Source: Rothia similimucilaginosa (lineage in GTDB: Bacteria > Actinomycetota > Actinomycetes > Actinomycetales > Micrococcaceae). From it: DNA of 64,000 bases. The notes under the pieces are model-generated. The model was given only the letters and a program-made list of their open reading frames with translations, did no database searches and was not told the origin of the DNA. Below are positions 7,975 to 21,602 of this stretch, one piece after another. How positions within the stretch are numbered: the first letter of the stretch is position 1; each line of letters starts with the position of its first letter. The DNA lies in the NCBI RefSeq assembly GCF_029850875.1, contig NZ_JAOVAM010000002.1, positions 186,001 to 250,000 on the forward strand, given 5' to 3'. The position numbers were made by a program, and so were the translations under genes.

Positions 7975-10900
7975 CTAGTCTTCGTTATCAAGCTTGAAGC
8001 TCTGCAGGCCTAGCTTGGTGGTGTACACCAGTTCGTAATCGCAGAGCCTGTATGAGTACACGCCTGCTTCGACCTCTTCGAAGGGCAAGATGAGCTGCCC
8101 CTCCAGCATGAATGACTTCTGCCAGTTTTCGATGCGTTCCTTTTCCAGCTGGTCGAGTGCGGCATCGAAGCGGAGCTTTCCGCCCTCGATGCGGTGGTTG
8201 GGTGCATCTGAGTATTGGTAGGGGAGTCGAATCGATGAAGCCGCAAGTTGCATGCTCTGCCAGTAAGTCGGCGGGTCATCGGCTGAAGCGTCAAAGCGAA
8301 GAGAATCAGTCTCGTCTGTGCCGTTGATGGAAGGCAAAAGTCGGTAGCTTTTAATCGCACTCTTGGGGTTGCCCGGTTGGTTCCGTTCCACAATGATTGC
8401 GATAACCTCCAATGAGGAATCGGTATCACGAACCTTTGCCTCGCCGATTTGCTCGTCAGAGAATCGCTGGTCGTTGGACTGGAGGAGACTCTTCATGCAG
8501 TCCGCCATGGTGTACTGTTCACCATGAGGTGCGCAGAGCAGGTAGCCTTTAGCACGGACATTGGCTAGATCCTTACCTTTCTCACATTCCTGCTTGGCGC
8601 TCTCGTAGACTTCTGCCCAGGCACTAGGAATCTCAGTAGACGTATTTTCCTGGTAGGTCTTCTGCACCAGTGGACTGATGTCCGCAGGGATTCGAATCGG
8701 TTCACTGTCGAAGTGGGGGAGTAGCTGCGCGTAGCTATTGAGTAGAATCATTGGCTCGTAGACTGCCTTAGATCCACGCGGGAAATCGGGCGCCTCATCG
8801 TGTGATCCGAAAGTTTCAATTCCTCGCACGTAGCACACCGGCTTGCGGTATGCGGGGGTGCGTTCTGAGCTACTGCGGCTATCGTGACGGTGTAGGCGTC
8901 CCATGCGCTGAAGTACCAGGTCGACCGGCGCGAAGTCGGTAATCATTACGTCAAAGTCCAGGTCAAGCGACTGTTCGATGACCTGCGTGCCCACCACGAT
9001 GAGGCGGTGCGGGCGCGAAGAATCCTCCCCGTCAGCTTCGTTGTAGTGCGCCTTCTTGCCGAGCTTCGATACGAGGAGTTCTTCTTGCTCGGCACGGTGG
9101 GTGGCGGTAAAGCGAGAGTGGGTGAGGATGACGTGCTCTTCACCGAACTGTTCACTCAGAAATGCGTGCATTTCCTGGGCTCGTCCAACGGTGTTGCAGA
9201 TGACTGCGGCGCATCCGTGATCATTGGCGAGCGGTTCGAGTACGTTCAGGACGCTTTCGGGGCTGTCGTCAATGAGTTTCAGCTCGATTTCGGTTTGCTC
9301 TACGGGCTGTTCAACCTTCCATTTCTTGGGAGTTCCGTTGTCCTCAGCGGTGAGCGTGTGGACAACGGGGTAATCCAGATCGAGGATGGGTTCTTCGGAC
9401 GCTTCCGGCTTAGGTGCTGCCTGAATACCTGCGAGTCGAGCTTTCATTTTCGCCATCAGGTCATTCTGTGATGGGGGAGCAGGAGCAGCTACTTTGTTCG
9501 GTTCTGCTCCAACCTTTAGACCCTTGGCGTAGCTCTTCATGAGCTCATCACGAGTAGCTGACGGCAGGGTTGCCGACATGAGAATAACGGGCGCATTCAT
9601 CTGACCCAGCCAGTAGAGCGCAGCAGAAAGATACCGGCTCATATACGCATCGTAGGCGTGAACCTCATCAATGATGATGACCTTAGAAGCGAGGCCAAGG
9701 TATCGGAGCATCACATGCCGTGCTTGCAGAGCGGTCATGAGAACTTGGTCGATGGTGCACACAATAAAGCTGGAGAGAAGCCCCTTCTTCGTACCGCTGA
9801 GCCAGCTGTGCCGGGCGAGAGACGTTCCGGGACGCAGCGTTTTTCGATTATTTTCTCGCCCGTGGGTAAAGGATTCGTCGAAAATATCTGCCTTGGAGAG
9901 CGCCTCGTAGGACTTGTTGAAGCGGTTCTTGGAGTGGCCCAGGAACATGGAGTGCGGCTCAATAGGTTCGCCGTGTTCTTGCGCCACGTTATTTGTCTGG
10001 TATTCCACCCATTCGATAACACGGTCAAAGAGGGCATTAGAAGTCGCCTGGGTGGGTGCTGCGAAGGCTATGCCGGTGCGACCGGTTGCCTGTGCGAGGA
10101 ACTCGGCAGCGATGAGACCGGCTTCGGTCTTACCCTGACCCATGGGTGCTTCGATGCACATCATGCCGCCGCTTTGCATGGAGCGTGCCGCTTTGACTAC
10201 GACTTCCTGCATGGGGCGTAGGCTCGGGTTGCTCCACCCAAAACGGGATGCGTAAAGATCTGCTGCGGGGGTATCGGGATTAGTGTCCAGTGCGGCAATC
10301 CAGCGCTGTTCAAGCCCGAGCGTCTGCCAACCAATGCGCGCTCGCTGTTCCTGTTCGGCTGAGCCAAAGGTGCCCATGGGGAAGAAATCAGGGTTTGAGG
10401 CAATCCAGTCTGACATGATGACGAAACCGGTGATGCAGAACTGCACGGAGACGGGGATAGTCTGTCCGCGCTGTGCTAACTGATGCAATGCCGAGGATGC
10501 GCCAAAGCGTTCCAGAGTGATGTTGTAGAGTTCTTGCCAGGCGGCATGCCATTTGGGGGAGAGACGCTCCAAAATGACGTTGCTTAGATCTGCTGAATTA
10601 GAGCGGTAGTCTGCGGGTGTGCCGTGGTGCGCGCCAGAGATGCTTGCGAGAGTTTCAGCAACTTCACGCGATATGCCCTCAATGTTGCTGGTGAGCAGGT
10701 GAATGAGGATGCTCTGGCTGTACTTGCTGTGGGGGCATCGCAAGCTGCTAGTAGGCGTGACAAGGTCTTCGGGGAACTCAAAGTCCTGCTGCTCGATACG
10801 CTGACGGTACACGGCGAGGTTTTCGTCGCGTCGCGCATCGAGCTGCCCGGAGAATTCGGGGGTTGCTTTGCCCATATCGTGGGTGGCGGTGAGCCAGCAT

Positions 10901-11121
10901 ACCAGCGCGCGCGTATCTTCCATTGAAAGGTGGAGATGCTCACTGAATCGTTTCTGCAGACCGGGTGCGAGCCATGTATCCCAGAGTCGGGCGGCAACAG
11001 AACCGGCATCGAGCATGTGCTGGACGAGGGAGAGACCGCGGGTGGGGGAGTCCTTGTCTCCTGTTTTTGCCCAGAATGATGCCGTTTCAGGTGTTGAAAG
11101 ATACTTAGGGGCGGGTGCCAT
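7975..11121 (-). CDS. cas3: CRISPR-associated helicase/nuclease Cas3 (type I-E)
   Basis: 1048 residues. After Cascade binds a target, Cas3 nicks and unwinds the displaced strand. An N-terminal HD nuclease domain has THDMGK (His81-Asp82), ISGAHHGTP near residue 162 and a later SDWIASN. The SF2 helicase has Walker A GQGKTE (328-333), DEVH at 485-488 and SATLP at 516. Both activities are in one chain as usual for type I-E, and the key residues look intact. AAGGAGAATC precedes the ATG. It is divergent from cas8e, and its own promoter must lie in or beyond the intergenic region that carries the degenerate repeats; a TATAAA on the minus strand at 11206-11211 is a possible -10. Confidence 0.97.
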   Translation of the reverse strand: MAPAPKYLSTPETASFWAKTGDKDSPTRGLSLVQHMLDAGSVAARLWDTWLAPGLQKRFSEHLHLSMEDTRALVCWLTATHDMGKATPEFSGQLDARRDENLAVYRQRIEQQDFEFPEDLVTPTSSLRCPHSKYSQSILIHLLTSNIEGISREVAETLASISGAHHGTPADYRSNSADLSNVILERLSPKWHAAWQELYNITLERFGASSALHQLAQRGQTIPVSVQFCITGFVIMSDWIASNPDFFPMGTFGSAEQEQRARIGWQTLGLEQRWIAALDTNPDTPAADLYASRFGWSNPSLRPMQEVVVKAARSMQSGGMMCIEAPMGQGKTEAGLIAAEFLAQATGRTGIAFAAPTQATSNALFDRVIEWVEYQTNNVAQEHGEPIEPHSMFLGHSKNRFNKSYEALSKADIFDESFTHGRENNRKTLRPGTSLARHSWLSGTKKGLLSSFIVCTIDQVLMTALQARHVMLRYLGLASKVIIIDEVHAYDAYMSRYLSAALYWLGQMNAPVILMSATLPSATRDELMKSYAKGLKVGAEPNKVAAPAPPSQNDLMAKMKARLAGIQAAPKPEASEEPILDLDYPVVHTLTAEDNGTPKKWKVEQPVEQTEIELKLIDDSPESVLNVLEPLANDHGCAAVICNTVGRAQEMHAFLSEQFGEEHVILTHSRFTATHRAEQEELLVSKLGKKAHYNEADGEDSSRPHRLIVVGTQVIEQSLDLDFDVMITDFAPVDLVLQRMGRLHRHDSRSSSERTPAYRKPVCYVRGIETFGSHDEAPDFPRGSKAVYEPMILLNSYAQLLPHFDSEPIRIPADISPLVQKTYQENTSTEIPSAWAEVYESAKQECEKGKDLANVRAKGYLLCAPHGEQYTMADCMKSLLQSNDQRFSDEQIGEAKVRDTDSSLEVIAIIVERNQPGNPKSAIKSYRLLPSINGTDETDSLRFDASADDPPTYWQSMQLAASSIRLPYQYSDAPNHRIEGGKLRFDAALDQLEKERIENWQKSFMLEGQLILPFEEVEAGVYSYRLCDYELVYTTKLGLQSFKLDNED

Positions 11122-11172
11122 GATTCTCCTTAGACGGTAGACTAGTGCGTACCTCGCTGCGGTGCGAGGTGT

Positions 11173-11202
11173 ATGTTCCCCGAAGCAGACGGGGATGAGC
11201 CA
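11173..11202 (+). repeat. Degenerate CRISPR repeat 1 in the cas3-cas8e gap
   Basis: ATGTTCCCCG starts it and CGGGGATGAGCCA ends it, against the array repeat that starts GTGTTCCCCG and ends CGGGGATGAGCCG. The loop has changed (AAGCAGA instead of CGCGAG) and is one base longer, but the CCCCG/CGGGG stem is kept and 7 of the last 8 bases, the future crRNA 5' handle, are unchanged. It is in the same orientation as the array, which is 6.6 kb away. Several leader-distal array repeats also begin ATGTTCC. A separate perfect 7-bp hairpin (ACCTCGC/GCGAGGT, 11151-11170) lies just upstream. Confidence 0.85.
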
Positions 11203-11244
11203 GTATTTATAAAATTGGTTGATGTGGTCCCTGCGCTAGCGGGG
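11195..11244 (+). ncRNA. Candidate crRNA-like guide RNA
   Basis: If Cas6e cuts at the base of each hairpin as in ordinary type I-E repeats, it would release handle ATGAGCCA (11195-11202), a 21-nt guide (11203-11223, starting GTATTTATAAA) and the second repeat's hairpin up to 11244. That is 50 nt instead of the normal 61, about two Cas7 steps (12 nt) shorter. The pattern of conservation, with the handle kept in repeat 1 and the hairpin kept in repeat 2, is what one functional crRNA needs. A weak plus-strand promoter (TTGAAA at 11094 and CATGAT at 11119) could drive it from inside the cas3 start. Expression is not shown by sequence. Confidence 0.55.
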
Positions 11245-11252
11245 ATTCTGCT
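11224..11252 (+). repeat. Degenerate CRISPR repeat 2 in the cas3-cas8e gap
   Basis: GTGGTCCCTGCGCTAGCGGG aligns with the first 20 bases of the array repeat with three changes (T4G, C9T, G14T). The changes keep a hairpin, TCCCTGC/GCGGGGA with loop GCTA and one U-G pair. The 3' part, which would be the handle of a following crRNA, has diverged to ATTCTGCT. The loss of the handle here, with the hairpin kept, contrasts with repeat 1 and suggests selection on a single spacer unit. Confidence 0.8.
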
Positions 11253-11292
11253 TCCATTGCGTCTGGTTTCACTCTACACCTTAAAAATATCA

Positions 11293-11327
11293 AAGGTATT
11301 AATAAATTGGTAGATTTACTTGACTTA
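11293..11327 (+). other. Partial protospacer with AAG PAM overlapping the cas8e promoter
   Basis: AAG at 11293-11295, the classical type I-E PAM, is followed by GTATTAATAAATTGGTAGAT. Against the guide at 11203-11223, positions 1-5 and 7-11 match and position 6 does not; position 6 is the base flipped out in Cascade. With a one-base gap the two segments stay alike over about 18 of 20 bases. A 32-nt footprint would run from 11296 into TTGACT, the -35 box. The same data could also mean a duplicated protein-binding site. Confidence 0.6.
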
Positions 11328-11349
11328 ACCTTCTTGGTGCTCCTATAGT
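11320..11349 (+). promoter_or_regulatory. Promoter of the cas8e operon
   Basis: TTGACT (11320-11325), an 18-bp spacer and TATAGT (11344-11349) match the vegetative sigma-factor pattern. Start of transcription near 11356 would leave a leader of about 140 nt before the cas8e ATG. An inverted repeat CTTGGTG (11333-11339) / CACCAAG (11374-11380) and an inner AGTGG/CCACT straddle the -10 and start region, and a leader hairpin GGTCCAC/GTGGAC is at 11406-11425. Confidence 0.75.
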
Positions 11350-11496
11350 GGAATTATCAAGCCACTGGAGGCCCACCAAGAGCCCCCTGACAAGGCTAAA
11401 TTAATGGTCCACTCCCATTGTGGACTAGAAACCATTTTTATGACTGCTCATTCGTCACTCGACAGTGAGCTGATTTCGATGATGAAAGGAGTGAGA

Positions 11497-13182
11497 ATGG
11501 CTAGCTTGGAAGAACCCCGCTTCAATCTTGTTGATGAAGCATGGATCCCGGTTCGACTGAAAACGGGCGAGGTTGCTGAGCTGTCACTCCATGATTTCTT
11601 CAAGCGGGTGTATGAGATTGACCGAATTCAAACGGATAATCCGCTAACCGATGTTGCAATCTTGAGTGTTGCGCTCATTATCTTTGCGCGCGCCACTTTT
11701 CTTAGCGAAGGCGTTAAGAGCTCTGGTGGCGCGGCTCCTTGGACTCGCCAGATGCGTGAGTCCGACGCTAATAACCTGACTGCTGTTCTGGGATACCTTG
11801 AAATTTTCAAGGACCGTTTCTGGCTGGTAGGCGGTGACCGCCCCTTTATGCAGGTGCATGATTTGCACACGGCTAAGGGAGACACCAAACCCGTTAGCCG
11901 CTTGCTTTTGGACTCGGAGAGCGAGTACTTCTCGGTTCGTGCTGAAAAGACCTTGGACTCTCTGAGCTTTGCCGAGGCAGCACGCTACCTGCTGACGATT
12001 CAAGCCTGGGACTATTCCGGTATTAAATCTGGCGCAGTGGGTGACCCCCGTGTTAAGGGCGGTAAGGGCTACCCTCTGGGCGTTGGCTGGTACGGCACCA
12101 CCGGTAAGGTGATTGTTCACGGTGCCAACATGATGGAAACCCTGCTGTACAGCCTCGACTATGAGCAGCTGACTGATGATGAGTCGTTTGCTCTTGACCT
12201 CCCGGTATGGGAACGTGCTGAACCTGATACCGCTGCACCCCGCGCCTATACGGGAGGGTCTGCCGCGGCTTATAAAGATGAGCCGGGTCCTGCGAGCGGT
12301 ATGTGCGAGATTTTGACCTGGCAGTCGCGTCGCATCCGCCTACACCATGACGGCGAGCGCGTAACTTCGGTCCTTGTTGCTAACGGCGATAAGTGGTTTG
12401 ACCGCAATACCTATACTGACCCTCTGACGGGTTATCGCTACAGCAAGAACCAGTCGTCGAAGACCGAACAGGTGTGGATGCCTCAGGCTCATTCGGCTGA
12501 ACGCACTCTGTGGCGTGGTGCTGATGCTCTGCTGACTCGTCTCACCCCGGAATCGGAGAAGCAGAATAAGCCTGCTCCTGTGATTCGTCAGTTGGGTTCG
12601 GGAAGGTACTTCCCGACCGACGCGGAGGTACAGGTTCAGCTGGTGGGCGTTGAATACGGCAACCAGAGCGCCGTGATTGAGAACATTATTTCTGACTCGA
12701 TGACCCTTGAGCTTTCTCTGCTGACTGATGAAGGTATGAGTGCCTCCCAGATGGTGCGTGAAAATATTCAGTCAACCATGGATGCGGCAATTGCTCTTGG
12801 GCAGTTTGCGGGTAATTTGTTGCGTGCCGCAGGTCGGGAATATGAATTCCGTGCAGATGCTACCGAAGCCGTACTTAACCGTATGGAGGAGTCTTTCCGC
12901 CTCTGGCTTGCAAATCAGGGGGCTGCAGAAGACATCTCTGTCAAGAAGGAAGAATGGCAGCGTCTGGTGCGTAACGCTATCCAGCACGAATCGAACATCC
13001 TTATTGATAGTGCAGGCCCCAAGGCTATGCTTGGCTTCTTTGGTAAGGATCTTTCCGGGAACGAAGTTCTTTACAGTGTTGCTCACGCAGAACGGCAGCT
13101 CCATGCGCGTCTGCGTAAGATCATCCCTTTGGCTTATCAAGCCTCTACCTCTCACTCACATCAGGAGGACACGAATGAGTGA
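11497..13182 (+). CDS. cas8e: Cascade large subunit Cas8e (Cse1/CasA)
   Basis: 561 residues. The large subunit of type I-E Cascade recognises the PAM and recruits Cas3. The protein opens with FNLVDEAWIPVRL, the typical Cse1 start, and continues with the ASLSVALIIFARA-like helix and the Trp-rich DRPFMQVHDL segment. ATG 11497 follows AAAGGAG at 6 bp. An in-frame ATG at 11404 with a weaker AAGG would add 31 residues that do not look like the family, so the shorter form is preferred. First gene of the Cascade operon; it overlaps cse2 by 8 bp. Confidence 0.95.
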   Translation: MASLEEPRFNLVDEAWIPVRLKTGEVAELSLHDFFKRVYEIDRIQTDNPLTDVAILSVALIIFARATFLSEGVKSSGGAAPWTRQMRESDANNLTAVLGYLEIFKDRFWLVGGDRPFMQVHDLHTAKGDTKPVSRLLLDSESEYFSVRAEKTLDSLSFAEAARYLLTIQAWDYSGIKSGAVGDPRVKGGKGYPLGVGWYGTTGKVIVHGANMMETLLYSLDYEQLTDDESFALDLPVWERAEPDTAAPRAYTGGSAAAYKDEPGPASGMCEILTWQSRRIRLHHDGERVTSVLVANGDKWFDRNTYTDPLTGYRYSKNQSSKTEQVWMPQAHSAERTLWRGADALLTRLTPESEKQNKPAPVIRQLGSGRYFPTDAEVQVQLVGVEYGNQSAVIENIISDSMTLELSLLTDEGMSASQMVRENIQSTMDAAIALGQFAGNLLRAAGREYEFRADATEAVLNRMEESFRLWLANQGAAEDISVKKEEWQRLVRNAIQHESNILIDSAGPKAMLGFFGKDLSGNEVLYSVAHAERQLHARLRKIIPLAYQASTSHSHQEDTNE

Positions 13183-14938: not shown

Positions 14939-15690
14939 TGCCTACCCTGCTCTTGAAGATGAGCGGGCCGTTGCAGTCATGGGGCACTCAGAGCCGTTTC
15001 CGTCGCCGTGATGCTGGGCATGAGCCGAGCAAGTCTGGCGTGATTGGAATGGTCGCTGCAGCCCTGGGGCGCTCGCGTAACGAGCCGGTTGATGACCTGG
15101 TTTCGTTGAAGTTTGCGGTGCGTACGGATGCCCAGGGTACCCTGATTCGTGACTATCAGACCGCTAAGAACTGGGCTAAGAACCCGAATGGTGCGGCTTC
15201 TCTTTCGACCCGTATGTACCTTTCGGATGCTGTTTTTGTGGTGGCTCTGGAAGGCGAACGTGAACAGCTGGAGACTATCGAATCTGCACTGAAGAAGCCT
15301 GTGTATCCTCTGTATCTTGGGCGACGTGCGTGCCCGGCTAGCTACGACCTTGTCCTGGGTATCCGTGAGGAGTCAGCTGAGGAAGCTCTGCGTTCGTTGG
15401 AGTGGCAGGTTCCTGAGTATCGTCGTAAGGATTTTCCGAGCCCGGTAGCGTTGCGCATCTTGCGTGATGCGTTGCCTGGTGAACGTGGCGACTTGGTGCG
15501 GGATATTCCGGTGAGTTTCAGCTCGGAGCATCGTCAGTATGCTTCGCGTGAGGTTGTGTCGGTTGAGCCTGTTCTCGTAAATATCAAGGACGATCAGCTT
15601 GCACAGAACGGGGAGGAAGGGGCTTCTGCGAAGAGCCCTTCTGCCCAGGATTCTGAGCCTGATTATATGAAGGCGGTGATGGAAGCATGA
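14938..15690 (+). CDS. cas5e: Cascade subunit Cas5e (CasD)
   Basis: 250 residues. Cas5e holds the 5' handle of the crRNA at the foot of Cascade. The family start LLLKMSGPLQSWGTQSRFRRR and SGVIGMVAAALGR are clear, as is the YPLYLGRRACPAS core. Overlaps cas7e by 1 bp (TAATG) and cas6e by 4 bp (ATGA), so translation is coupled. The last 40 residues are a less conserved acidic Ser/Glu stretch. Confidence 0.95.
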   Translation: MPTLLLKMSGPLQSWGTQSRFRRRDAGHEPSKSGVIGMVAAALGRSRNEPVDDLVSLKFAVRTDAQGTLIRDYQTAKNWAKNPNGAASLSTRMYLSDAVFVVALEGEREQLETIESALKKPVYPLYLGRRACPASYDLVLGIREESAEEALRSLEWQVPEYRRKDFPSPVALRILRDALPGERGDLVRDIPVSFSSEHRQYASREVVSVEPVLVNIKDDQLAQNGEEGASAKSPSAQDSEPDYMKAVMEA

Positions 15691-16367
15691 CGTATTTTTC
15701 TCGTTTCATGATTAATCCGCAGCGTCGTGGTGCGTGGAAGTTGTTGCGTAGCCCGCAGGCGATGCATGCTGCTGTGATGGCGACTTTGCCGCCGGATACG
15801 GACTATTCTGAGAGCCGTATTCTGTGGCGTTTGGATGAGTTTCAGCATGCTCCGGTTCTGTACATGTTGAGCCCTGAGGAGCCTGATTTTTCGGCTCTTG
15901 TGGAGCAGGCTGGATGGCATAATCGCCGTGGTGAGAGCGCTCATTATGGTCGTTTGCTGGCGAAGCTGGAGAACGGTCAGGAGTGGGCTTTCCGCCTTGC
16001 CGCGAACCCGGTGAAGCGTCATACGAATCAGCAGACGGGTAAGCGTGAGGTGTTCCCGCACGTGACTGTTACCCAGCAGCAAGCGTGGATTCGTGAGCGT
16101 GCTCCGCAGTGGGGATTTGAAGTAATTCCTAGTGTTGAAGGTCAGGATGTCGAGGAGTGCCCGATGGTTTCTTCTCGTCAGGATCTTGCGTTTGCCCGTC
16201 GTAACGCTGAGGGCAAGGTTGGTAAGGTGACTCACCGTAAGGCTCAGTTTGATGGTGCTCTTCGCATCACTGATGTTGAGCTGTTCCGTCAGTCTTTGCT
16301 CTCTGGTATGGGCAGGGGTAAGGCGTACGGCATGGGCCTTCTAACGTTGGCGCCTCTGTCCCGCTAG
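15687..16367 (+). CDS. cas6e: CRISPR RNA endoribonuclease Cas6e (CasE)
   Basis: 226 residues. Cas6e cuts the precursor at the 3' base of each repeat hairpin and stays bound to the mature crRNA. It has the two-ferredoxin RAMP fold signature, ending with the glycine-rich SGMGRGKAYGMGLL loop. The N-terminal SRFMINPQRRGAWKLLRSPQAMHAAV with its His is the expected active-site region. The last Cascade gene; a terminator follows 13 bp after its stop. It would also process the degenerate repeats at 11173-11252 if they are transcribed. Confidence 0.95.
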   Translation: MTYFSRFMINPQRRGAWKLLRSPQAMHAAVMATLPPDTDYSESRILWRLDEFQHAPVLYMLSPEEPDFSALVEQAGWHNRRGESAHYGRLLAKLENGQEWAFRLAANPVKRHTNQQTGKREVFPHVTVTQQQAWIRERAPQWGFEVIPSVEGQDVEECPMVSSRQDLAFARRNAEGKVGKVTHRKAQFDGALRITDVELFRQSLLSGMGRGKAYGMGLLTLAPLSR

Positions 16368-17850: not shown

Positions 17851-20800
17851 GTGTTCCCCGCGCGAGCGGGGATGAGCCGGAATTTAGCCCATTTGGAATT
17901 AGCACCATTATGTGTTCCCCGCGCGAGCGGGGATGAGCCGTGCTGGCGCTCATGGCGTAGTGCTACACGGTTGTGTTCCCCGCGCGAGCGGGGATGAGCC
18001 CGCTACACCGCTACCTCAACGGAACGGTAACGCGTGTTCCCCGCGCGAGCGGGGATGAGCCGCCGGTGTGTTAGAACCCGGGTTGATGATAATCGTGTTC
18101 CCCGCGCGAGCGGGGATGAGCCGAGCGCTAAGGCGGCTTTCAGCTGCACCCAGGCGTGTTCCCCGCGCGAGCGGGGATGAGCCGATTGCACGAAGGCCCT
18201 CGGCTTTGATTTCGAGGTGTTCCCCGCGCGAGCGGGGATGAGCCGGCGCGCTGGGTCATGAGCATCGCCATATCCCAGTGTTCCCCGCGCGAGCGGGGAT
18301 GAGCCGATGCTCACGCACGGCGCCCGCCCAGCCCGTATGTGTTCCCCGCGCGAGCGGGGATGAGCCGGCTGAGGTTTCTGCTCTGCGTGCGTCGTGGGAG
18401 TGTTCCCCGCGCGAGCGGGGATGAGCCGAACACGCCGTAACGTGGAACAACCTCGTAGCCGTGTTCCCCGCGCGAGCGGGGATGAGCCGCGTGGTCTGCG
18501 CATGACGTGAGGCCAGCCCAGGTGTTCCCCGCGCGAGCGGGGATGAGCCGCGGACCCTGAACCGCCTCATGGCACTCATCAAGTGTTCCCCGCGCGAGCG
18601 GGGATGAGCCGAAGTTGGTAAGTGCCTGGCACAGGTAAACTAAGTGTTCCCCGCGCGAGCGGGGATGAGCCGAGGTGGAGCGGAGCCATACGACCGGCAC
18701 ATTAGTGTTCCCCGCGCGAGCGGGGATGAGCCGACCGGAACACCGCAATTCAGAACGCCTTGAAAGTGTTCCCCGCGCGAGCGGGGATGAGCCGATTTTG
18801 CGCCCGGTTTGAGTTAGTGGTTGCTTGTGTTCCCCGCGCGAGCGGGGATGAGCCGAGCTGGTCAATGCGTCGCCTATCTGAAGAGGCGTGTTCCCCGCGC
18901 GAGCGGGGATGAGCCGGCGCTAGGACGGGGGGCGTACTAATGCCGCTAGTGTTCCCCGCGCGAGCGGGGATGAGCCGCCACGCATTGACATAAGCGTCGG
19001 TAGCGGGCAGTGTTCCCCGCGCGAGCGGGGATGAGCCGCGTAATTGTATCGCCAACATCAAAGGCCACACGTGTTCCCCGCGCGAGCGGGGATGAGCCGA
19101 AAGGAAACCGATAATGACCGACAAGAAGACCGTGTTCCCCGCGCGAGCGGGGATGAGCCGACCGAGCTAACCGCTGTGATGGGCAATGCGAGGTGTTCCC
19201 CGCGCGAGCGGGGATGAGCCGACAAGGTCGCTGACAAGTAATGAGCTGCTGACGTGTTCCCCGCGCGAGCGGGGATGAGCCGTACGAGCCGGGGCCCGTG
19301 ATTGATGCCGCCCTGTGTTCCCCGCGCGAGCGGGGATGAGCCGCATTCCTGCGCCGTATCCATCACTACTACGAGGTGTTCCCCGCGCGAGCGGGGATGA
19401 GCCGCCGTCCACGAACGCGCCGTCCTCCGCGATGACGTGTTCCCCGCGCGAGCGGGGATGAGCCGAATGTTAATCGCGAGGCGGGCACGATAATTCAGTG
19501 TTCCCCGCGCGAGCGGGGATGAGCCGAAGCCAGCGGAAAGCCGACGAAATAGCGTCAAGTGTTCCCCGCGCGAGCGGGGATGAGCCGCTCCGCTATGAAA
19601 CTGTGGTGCTTCTTGTGTCGTGTTCCCCGCGCGAGCGGGGATGAGCCGCGGTGCGCTAGTAGCGGCAACCTCTTCTTCCTGTGTTCCCCGCGCGAGCGGG
19701 GATGAGCCGTCCTAATGCAAGCTTGGATTTCATCTCTTCCAGTGTTCCCCGCGCGAGCGGGGATGAGCCGCGGTTAAGAGCCGCCTAGCATTGGAGAAGT
19801 TAGTGTTCCCCGCGCGAGCGGGGATGAGCCGTACAGACGCTACGGCGATTATTTCATCAAAATGTGTTCCCCGCGCGAGCGGGGATGAGCCGCGGAAGCC
19901 ATCCCAAACGTTCATGGGTGCGGTGTGTTCCCCGCGCGAGCGGGGATGAGCCACCGAAGCCTGATATTGTGCTGCCGACTGTGGAGTGTTCCCCGCGCGA
20001 GCGGGGATGAGCCGGGCGGGAACGGCAAGACCTACTCGTTGGTTGCGTGTTCCCCGCGCGAGCGGGGATGAGCCGATAGCCGAGGGGCTCAACCTAAGCG
20101 CTTCGCAGTGTTCCCCGCGCGAGCGGGGATGAGCCTGGGGCGAAGAGGGTGCCGACGAAATTCCCGAGGTGTTCCCCGCGCGAGCGGGGATGAGCCGCGG
20201 GTAAGTGTGCGCAGCTGGTCGAGCTGAAGGTGTTCCCCGCGCGAGCGGGGATGAGCCGCAAAGAAGAAGGAAGAGAGCTAACATGTCGATGTGTTCCCCG
20301 CGCGAGCGGGGATGAGCCGTCGGATTCTACGCGGGCGTGGCTGCCCTTCTTGTGTTCCCCGCGCGAGCGGGGATGAGCCGGACACCACCACCAATGACCG
20401 CCCACCCTTCTGAAAGTGTTCCCCGCGCGAGCGGGGATGAGCCGACCCTAAAGGCACTGTTCCAGAACTGGGTGAAGTGTTCCCCGCGCGAGCGGGGATG
20501 AGCCGAACGCGATTACCCGCGCGCTACCGCTATTCATGTGTTCCCCGCGCGAGCGAGGATGAGCCTAGAAGCGCCTGCGTGATGAGCTGCTTCTGTTGGT
20601 GTTCCCCGCGCGAGCGGGGATGAGCCGTTGGTGATGCCGCGATCAATAATCTCATTGATGTGTTCCCCGCGCGAGCGGGGATGAGCCGGGCTCCGCCGCC
20701 CGCATGCACGAGTATGCCGCGTGTTCTCCGCGCGAGCGGGGATGAGCCGAGTTTCCTCATCAGCTACAGGTTCCGGTGCACGTGTTCCCCGCGCGAGCGG

Positions 20801-21602
20801 GGATGAGCCTGCCAGGGTGATGATTGCTGATTGGAATTGAGCGTGTTCCCCGCGCGAGCGGGGATGAGCCGCCGCGCCATTGCTCCAGCGCTAAGCCTAA
20901 GCTGTGTTCCCCGCGCGAGCGGGGATGAGCCGGTTACATCGGTACCCCGGCGCGCATGCTCCCCGTGTTCCCCGCGCGAGCGGAGATGAGCCGGGCTGGC
21001 GTCACGAGCAACTGTCCGCACTCATCTGTTCCCCGCGCGAGTGGGGATGAGCCGAAGACCGGGGTAGAGCCATAGGAACCAACGTAGTGTTCCCCGCGCG
21101 AGCGGGGATGAGCCTTCGCGGAAGACCCCCTGGGCTCCTTCTTCGTGTGTTCCCCGCGCGAGCGGGGATGAGCCGCACCATTTCATGCCGCCTATCAGAG
21201 CTTTCAAGTGTTCCCCGCGCGAGCGGGGGTGAATCGATGGCCTCTGACGGCAAGATTGGGTTCGACCAATGTTCCCCGCGCGAGTGGGGATGAGCCGGCG
21301 CCGATGGACTGAATGACGATGGCGCGTAGATGTTCCCTGCGCGAGCGGGGATGAGCCGAGGAGTGCTGCGGGGGCGGTGTTGAACAGCGCATGTTCCCCG
21401 CACGGGCGGGGATGAGCCGAAGAAGATGAAGGCGGCGGCTGAGGCAATGGAATGTTCCCCGCGCGAGCGGGGATGAGCCGCAATCCACTTTCACCTCCGC
21501 GCCGAAACTGCCGTGTTCCCCGCGCGAGCGGGGATGAGCCCTATATCAAGGGCAATAATGAAAGAGGCTCAACGTATTCCCCGCACTCGCGGGCACAGGT
21601 TA
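17851..21602 (+). CRISPR. Type I-E CRISPR array, 61 repeats plus one decayed terminal repeat
   Basis: The 29-bp repeat starts GTGTTCCCCGCG, has a CCCCGC/GCGGGG hairpin and ends GGGGATGAGCCG. Repeats begin at 17851 and recur every 61 bp. I count 61 recognisable repeats, the last at 21513, then a strongly decayed one at 21574 (GTATTCCCCG then CACTCGCGGG). Spacers are 32 nt, except one of 35 nt (20381-20415) and one of 31 nt before 21147. Repeats are almost all identical up to about 20.5 kb. After that they vary, for example at 20538, 20721, 20965, 21026, 21208, 21269, 21330 and 21391. The array reads in the same direction as cas1-cas2. Spacer origins cannot be told without a search. Confidence 0.98.

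Follow-up and report, generated by a model that had tools for sequence, protein, structure and literature searches.

CreR, which Liu et al. reportedly described in Cell Host Microbe in 2023, is said to be a cas-regulating RNA of CRISPR types I-B, I-E, and V-A. According to excerpts of PMC13131331, CreRs mediate autorepression in these three types through partial promoter complementarity, and a competition model for CreR is given in excerpts of PMC12737573. CreR and the locus reported here have in common a mini-CRISPR beside the cas genes and a guide that is complementary, to a limited extent and behind a PAM, to the cas promoter. Autorepression through the effector would be expected here as well. 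The present locus differs from CreR in its 21-nt guide, in its position in a divergent cas3/cas8e gap, and in a first repeat (psiR1) whose loop is complementary to the tail that follows the second repeat (psiR2). The psiR1-psiS-psiR2 architecture with degenerate repeats is shared with CreA of the haloarchaeal type I-B module CreTA (excerpts of PMC8501985 and PMC9458426), as is the pairing at positions 1-5 and 7-11 together with a PAM (PMC8501985, excerpts). However, CreA targets a toxin-gene promoter and not a cas promoter, and of its two repeats psiR1 has diverged further; in the present locus the handle is kept by psiR1 and lost from psiR2.

Two further bodies of work bear on the limited pairing and the short guide. 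In Escherichia coli, Cascade binds with an AAG and as few as 5 seed base pairs, whereas interference needs extended pairing (PMC5904413, excerpts). The AAG and short seed of the present locus are of a kind that suffices for binding and not for interference, but the E. coli sites are incidental off-targets, 45% of which match at position 6 for the crRNAs examined there, compared with 3 of 29 pairs in this study (23 plus six read by eye). In Haloarcula, shortening the spacer abolishes interference, and from 24 nt downward there is no priming either, while repression persists (PMC10989794, excerpts). A 21-nt guide fits with this, but the guides of three relatives (G028, G027, and G002) are longer.

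We analyzed a window of 64,000 nucleotides from Rothia similimucilaginosa (contig NZ_JAOVAM010000002.1, positions 186,001 to 250,000), in which an earlier note, made from the letters alone, had pointed to a degenerate mini-array. The note knew of no such case in an actinobacterial type I-E locus. CreR has already been reported for type I-E (PMC13131331, in the excerpted part); no title on CreR in Rothia or actinobacteria was among the literature matches listed, but the primary CreR paper may include such loci. CreR in type I-E is therefore known, and the Rothia locus is an addition to it.

A degenerate mini-array between cas3 and cas8e

All eight cas proteins of the window (8/8) match type I-E families or Cas3 domains. 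The main array holds 61 repeat copies at no more than 3 mismatches, where none are expected from shuffles, and the 29th base of its repeat is a G in 49 of the 55 copies counted. At the array end (21026-21540), six of the last nine repeats carry 1-3 mismatches, which is the usual leader-distal decay. Since a megablast search of the main array against phage records gave no match, the array was not tied to phages.

Within the cas3-cas8e gap, the one-spacer mini-array of two degenerate repeats described in the earlier note was confirmed and spans 11173-11246, with psiR1, guide, and psiR2 oriented like the main array, and unguided repeat detection recovered both of its elements (families D2 and D3). 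The details also held up on counting: psiR1 keeps its stem (CCCCG/CGGGG, with a loop longer than that of the array repeat) and 7 of the 8 handle bases of the array repeat, and the coordinates and length of the guide agreed. Likewise, psiR2 (GTGGTCCCTGCGCTAGCGGGGAT) has 3 differences from the array repeat in its first 20 bases (17/20 kept), including the hairpin (6 pairs, among them one G-U; 7 if the T-A beside it is counted), and its handle is lost in that ATGAGCC does not come next. Presumably, Cas6e would cut after 11194 in psiR1 and after 11244 in psiR2. A canonical type I-E array has near-identical repeats and spacers of ~32 nt, whereas the repeats here are degenerate, the spacer is 21 nt long, and a second handle is missing; what is found is, as in CreR, a crRNA-like unit with degenerate repeats that is linked to a cas locus. 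An Rfam search of 11050-11560 returned no match at E ≤ 0.1.

A seven-pair hairpin (ACCTCGC/GCGAGGT, 11151-11170) lies directly upstream of psiR1. Its outermost pair is A-T in the window and G-C in G013 (read from the alignment), a genome with a Cas8e 98% identical to that of the window, and the hairpin was not seen in G001 and G033. It could be part of creR or of the cas3 leader.

When the gap was compared between five Rothia sequences (one genome per species), 24 of the 30 psiR1 positions were invariant versus 1 of the 21 guide positions, as counted from the alignment. Between species, the guide changes along with its target. Loss of the psiR2 handle recurred, as predicted, in the relatives read by eye. 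The remark that the guide falls short of 32 nt by close to two Cas7 steps turned out not to be general, because the distance from the guide start to the psiR2 stem varies: it is 25 nt in the window and 24-30 nt in G015, G001, and G033, and 38-39 nt in G028, G027, and G002.

Table 1. Coordinates of the cas genes, the mini-array, and its target in the window.
Feature	Position	Strand	Remarks
cas3	7975-11121	-	divergent from cas8e; start codon at 11121
psiR1	11173-11202	+	30 nt, ATGTTCCCCGAAGCAGACGGGGATGAGCCA; degenerate I-E repeat
psiR1 loop segment GAAGCAGA	11182-11189	+	complementary to 11247-11254
psiR1 handle ATGAGCCA	11195-11202	+	
Predicted mature CreR RNA	11195-11244	+	50 nt; predicted from I-E Cas6e cleavage rules
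Guide	11203-11223	+	21 nt, GTATTTATAAAATTGGTTGAT
psiR2	11224-11246	+	hairpin retained, handle gone
Tail after psiR2 TCTGCTTC	11247-11254	+	complementary to psiR1 loop; occupies place of remaining psiR2 handle
Target PAM AAG	11293-11295	+	
Target protospacer	11296-11316	+	ungapped; guide positions 1-5, 7-11, 13, 15, 21 match
cas8e-operon promoter candidate	11320-11349	+	TTGACT-18-TATAGT
cas8e (cse1/casA)	11497-13182	+	TIGR02547; first operon gene downstream of target
cas6e (casE)	15687-16367	+	TIGR01907; enzyme expected to process CreR
Main CRISPR array	about 17851-21541	+	repeat GTGTTCCCCGCGCGAGCGGGGATGAGCC

A target in front of the cas8e promoter candidate

A target for the guide, missed by the earlier note, was found at 11293-11316 in the same gap. 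The guide agrees with 11296-11306 at every one of positions 1-5 and 7-11 (10/10 seed) and is mismatched at positions 6 and 12. This is the sole exact site with AAN and the ten seed positions in the 2,046,137-base genome, in which eight further sites are one-mismatch versions. When the gap was shuffled 4000 times (first-order), a 10/10 seed with an AAG or AAC PAM never arose (the best score being 9, in four shuffles), and a 10/10 seed irrespective of the PAM arose in three. Beyond position 13 the ungapped match fades in the window, and a 1-nt gap restores it; a gapped alignment of guide and target was dropped because the ungapped comparison needs no gap, with the first mismatches at 6 and 12.

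The promoter candidate behind the target, of which the -35 element TTGACT starts 24 nt after the protospacer start, is the only promoter-like site found in 11080-11520 (0.6 expected by chance from shuffles), and the same consensus search detected no promoter-like site upstream of psiR1. TTGAC[TA] with an 18-nt spacing also occurs close behind the target in G015, G001, G033, and G028. As in CreR, the guide has partial complementarity to a PAM-flanked site at the promoter of the cas operon beside it, with the promoter being a consensus match only, and Cascade bound at the target should lie against this promoter candidate. The cas8e leader also contains a hairpin at 11407-11425 (GTCCAC/GTGGAC, loop TCCCATT), and on inspection by eye G015 and G001 have hairpins with a similar loop.

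Covariation of guide and target in related loci

Relatives were collected by Cas8e searches in four overlapping genome sets: genus (35 genomes, E limit 1e-3, 16 matches), family (395 genomes, 1e-20, 37 matches), order (396 genomes, 1e-20, 54 matches), and class (394 genomes, 1e-40, 47 matches). We compared 15, 20, 20, 20, and 20 stretches (L071 twice), by which the order and class matches were covered in part. Many relatives carry psiR1, a guide, and a handle-less hairpin in the gap, or upstream of cas3 where cas3 and cas8e form one operon. From a broad scan, which allowed any place and gave many candidates with a seed of at least 9 but without AAC or AAG, 23 non-redundant guides were chosen by a seed of at least 9/10 and partly by PAM and place.

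The seed matches of all 23 cognate pairs (23/23) are a product of this selection. When guides and targets were swapped between loci, 18 of 506 pairs reached a seed of at least 9, and with AAG or AAC required the numbers were 21 of 23 for cognate versus 1 of 506 for swapped pairs. Even between the window and G015, of which the Cas8e proteins are 84% identical, the guide differs and the target differs along with it. We read this as coevolution of guide and target and not as common descent alone. On the evidence of these swaps and of the rule-based tests below, the guide-target pairing is maintained by selection, as in CreR.

The distribution of mismatches over the 23 pairs provided a second line of evidence. 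Mismatches peak at positions 6 (20 pairs), 12 (18), and 18 (17), which coincide with the flipped-out bases of Cascade, since the type I-E complex flips out one crRNA base in six, at regular intervals (excerpts of PMC5904413 and PMC13122317). Positions 1-5 and 7-11 had been used for choosing the pairs, and positions 13-17 only as a tie-breaker; mismatches at the latter numbered 6, 8, 7, 10, and 10, which leaves 74 matches out of 115 versus 0.25 by chance (P 7e-19). After position 17 matching is approximately at chance level (28/92 at positions 19-22). With six more pairs read by eye (L063, L088, L089, L105, L106, and L114), all mismatched at position 6, the count there became 26 of 29, and comparison with 0.75 (P 0.045) gives a weak hint that matching at this position is avoided.

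A rule-based survey of cas promoter regions

Since the 23 guides had been picked partly by PAM and place, we used rule-based tests, in which a match needed a handle with at most 1 mismatch, a flush stem of at least 4, a seed of at least 9/10, and a PAM of AAC or AAG. The rule matched 25 of 54 cas promoter windows versus 1 of 909 control tiles of the same size elsewhere in the same loci, where the 25 include six near-identical genomes (G000/G013; G028, G018, G005, and G020) and a second handle form was permitted in eight loci. In held-out loci, 5 of 33 matched versus 0 of 556 tiles under a nearly unchanged rule, for which the handle was taken from the locus's own array where found and the cas3 frame limit was shorter. 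Loci lacking a cas3 frame had been excluded before counting (2 of 56 in the 54-window test and 6 of 39 in the hold-out), and loci with cut regions were counted (L046 with 151 nt and L060 with 223 nt in the former, L118 with 425 nt in the latter). By this rule, 29 of the 54 loci in the first test and 28 of the 33 in the hold-out gave no match.

When the PAM was ignored, the 54 windows contained 32 candidates with a seed of at least 9, of which 25 carry AAC or AAG. In the hold-out, 17 of 22 such candidates were without these PAMs (12 CCC, 3 AAT, 1 GAG, and 1 GAA), and those CCC candidates that were printed match one piece of CRISPR repeat to another. Three loci among the 23 are not rule matches, namely L060 (223-nt region), L071 (no cas3 frame), and L072 (PAM AAA), and in an earlier run with narrower promoter windows chance picks for L041, L053, and L072 scored above the reported ones. 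Within Rothia, 13 of 15 testable genomes match and G029 and G010 do not (G004 is outside this count). The recurrence of handle, flush hairpin, and cas-promoter target lends comparative support to the idea of the earlier note that Cas6e would make one crRNA-like guide, in parallel to CreA and CreR.

In operon-type loci, an in-frame start preceded by a Shine-Dalgarno (SD) sequence lies 23-121 nt after the target in 12 of 15 cases. The misfits are L064, with no SD-preceded start within 400 nt, L039, where the first is at 334 nt, and L068, where it is at 444 nt. Upstream of cas3, L068 (G724) has the target twice in tandem, as near-copies, and with the 444 nt this may point to a double operator or to space for another gene. 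Two other observations concern single loci: in L020 (G001), the creR-cas8e unit occurs twice in tandem, 6.4 kb apart, with an identical guide and target in both, and in L005 to L009 (G033 and four genomes of the G028 group) the Cas8e match has one internal in-frame stop.

The last PAM base tends to follow the array

The last PAM base of the targets tends to equal the base that follows the 28-nt array repeat. In 3 lineages (G000/G013, G033, and G484) a G array accompanies AAG, and in 11 a C array accompanies AAC, the one exception being the G028 group, where AAC stands at the target and 71-81% of the array copies have G; the association has a Fisher P of 0.009 with lineages grouped by hand and mixed arrays omitted. 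Two mixed arrays from the held-out loci go against the rule, namely L106 (AAC, with G the commonest base) and L114 (AAG, with C the commonest). The base after the type I-E repeat is derived from the PAM during adaptation, and AAC and AAG are among the tabulated I-E PAMs (PMC8482600, excerpts). Where the base has this origin, its agreement with the PAM base is expected.

Complementarity between the psiR1 loop and the tail

The complementarity of the psiR1 loop to the tail after psiR2 amounts to 8 bp in the window (p 0.006 by tail shuffling). A different 8-bp pair, GCGAGAAG/CTTCTCGC, is found in G001, with 5 bp in G033 and 6 bp in G463, and no other sequence from outside the clade of the window exceeds 4 consecutive Watson-Crick pairs. 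Swapping loops and tails between G001 and the window left 4-5 bp. Over 22 lineages combined the pairing is not general (P 0.09, with some psiR2 picks doubtful, L037, L060, L061, and L065 among them). G001 and G033 alone give P 0.0005, where the two were chosen after seeing the window and G001's 0 of 2000 shuffles was entered as 0.0005. One predicted fold pairs the loop with the tail and opens psiR1, but this fold is not robust, because the psiR1 hairpin was the more probable structure in all five shorter precursors that were folded (5/5). We therefore treat loop-tail pairing, as modeled here, as a lead and not as a result. It is conceivable, if rather doubtful, that in the clade resembling R. 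mucilaginosa a loop-tail pseudoknot or alternative fold competes with the Cas6e hairpin and forms a second layer of control on the CreR precursor. If so, CreR processing would depend on the amount of Cas6e or Cascade, and autorepression would have a threshold.

Discussion

Our comparisons are most consistent with a creR-type locus, in which a crRNA-like RNA would guide Cascade to repress the cas8e operon, and we put the probability of this reading at roughly 0.85. The transcription, processing, Cascade loading, repression, and physiological role of creR are what we infer from the arrangement of the locus. In the proposed working, the mini-array would be transcribed rightward into a short precursor. 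Cuts by Cas6e in both repeats would release from it a crRNA-like RNA of ~50 nt that carries the 21-nt guide behind a normal 5' handle. Cascade loaded with this CreR would then bind the AAG-flanked site just upstream of the -35 element, pairing mainly at positions 1-5 and 7-11. Since this pairing would be too limited for cleavage, bound Cascade would only block the promoter, and would thereby repress the genes that encode it. The promoter would become free again when additional crRNA or anti-CRISPR proteins draw Cascade off.

The same pairing at positions 1-5 and 7-11 behind a PAM is known from CreA (PMC8501985, excerpts), which raises the question whether the locus is an addiction module like CreTA, with the mini-array as the creA antitoxin and the targeted promoter driving a small toxic RNA ahead of cas8e. 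The ~145 nt between the promoter candidate and cas8e, with the hairpin at 11407-11425, would be in line with this. However, the gap's one promoter-like site faces cas8e, the T-run behind that hairpin is not conserved in G015 or G001, and most operon-type loci (12 of 15) have a likely cas3 start so near the target (23-121 nt) that little space is left for a toxin gene. No separate toxin RNA gene was seen under the targeted promoter, where the leader of ~145 nt remains, and we consider such a module improbable. More improbable still is that the mini-array is left over from a former array and has no present function, its repeats surviving by chance or because the decay is recent. Degenerate repeats, one missing handle, and the 2 of 15 testable Rothia loci without the element speak for decay, but a relic does not account for the covariation of guide and target over 23 non-redundant guides with its 6-nt periodicity and PAM switching, nor for a psiR1 that is far more conserved than the guide.

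We also weighed whether the shared sequence itself is the functional unit. The AT-rich stretches 11203-11223 and 11296-11315 match across 21 nt with one gap and might be binding sites of a protein regulator beside incidental hairpins. There is very little room for this explanation, since the shared sequence varies by species, skips every sixth base, and begins directly after the handle in one copy and directly after AAG or AAC in the other (21 of 23 pairs). A captured self-targeting spacer serving immunity or priming instead of regulation has an equally slender chance: its PAM and seed would indeed be like those of a functional protospacer, but over the 23 pairs matches beyond position 17 are about as frequent as expected by chance, the repeats are degenerate, the arrangement recurs in several genera, and megablast against phage records did not tie the array to phages.

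Taken as a creR-type locus, the mini-array that had been spotted by eye now has a concrete and unique target assigned to it. Guides aimed at promoters in this way recur among type I-E loci of actinobacteria, and their guide-target pairs have changed independently. Because the pairs covary and drift is seen at the flipped-out positions, nature has recorded in these loci which base pairs Cascade needs at a promoter. It may also be possible, through the link between array and PAM, to read the PAM of a system from its own genome. The locus also presents a testable feedback circuit in an oral bacterial genus.
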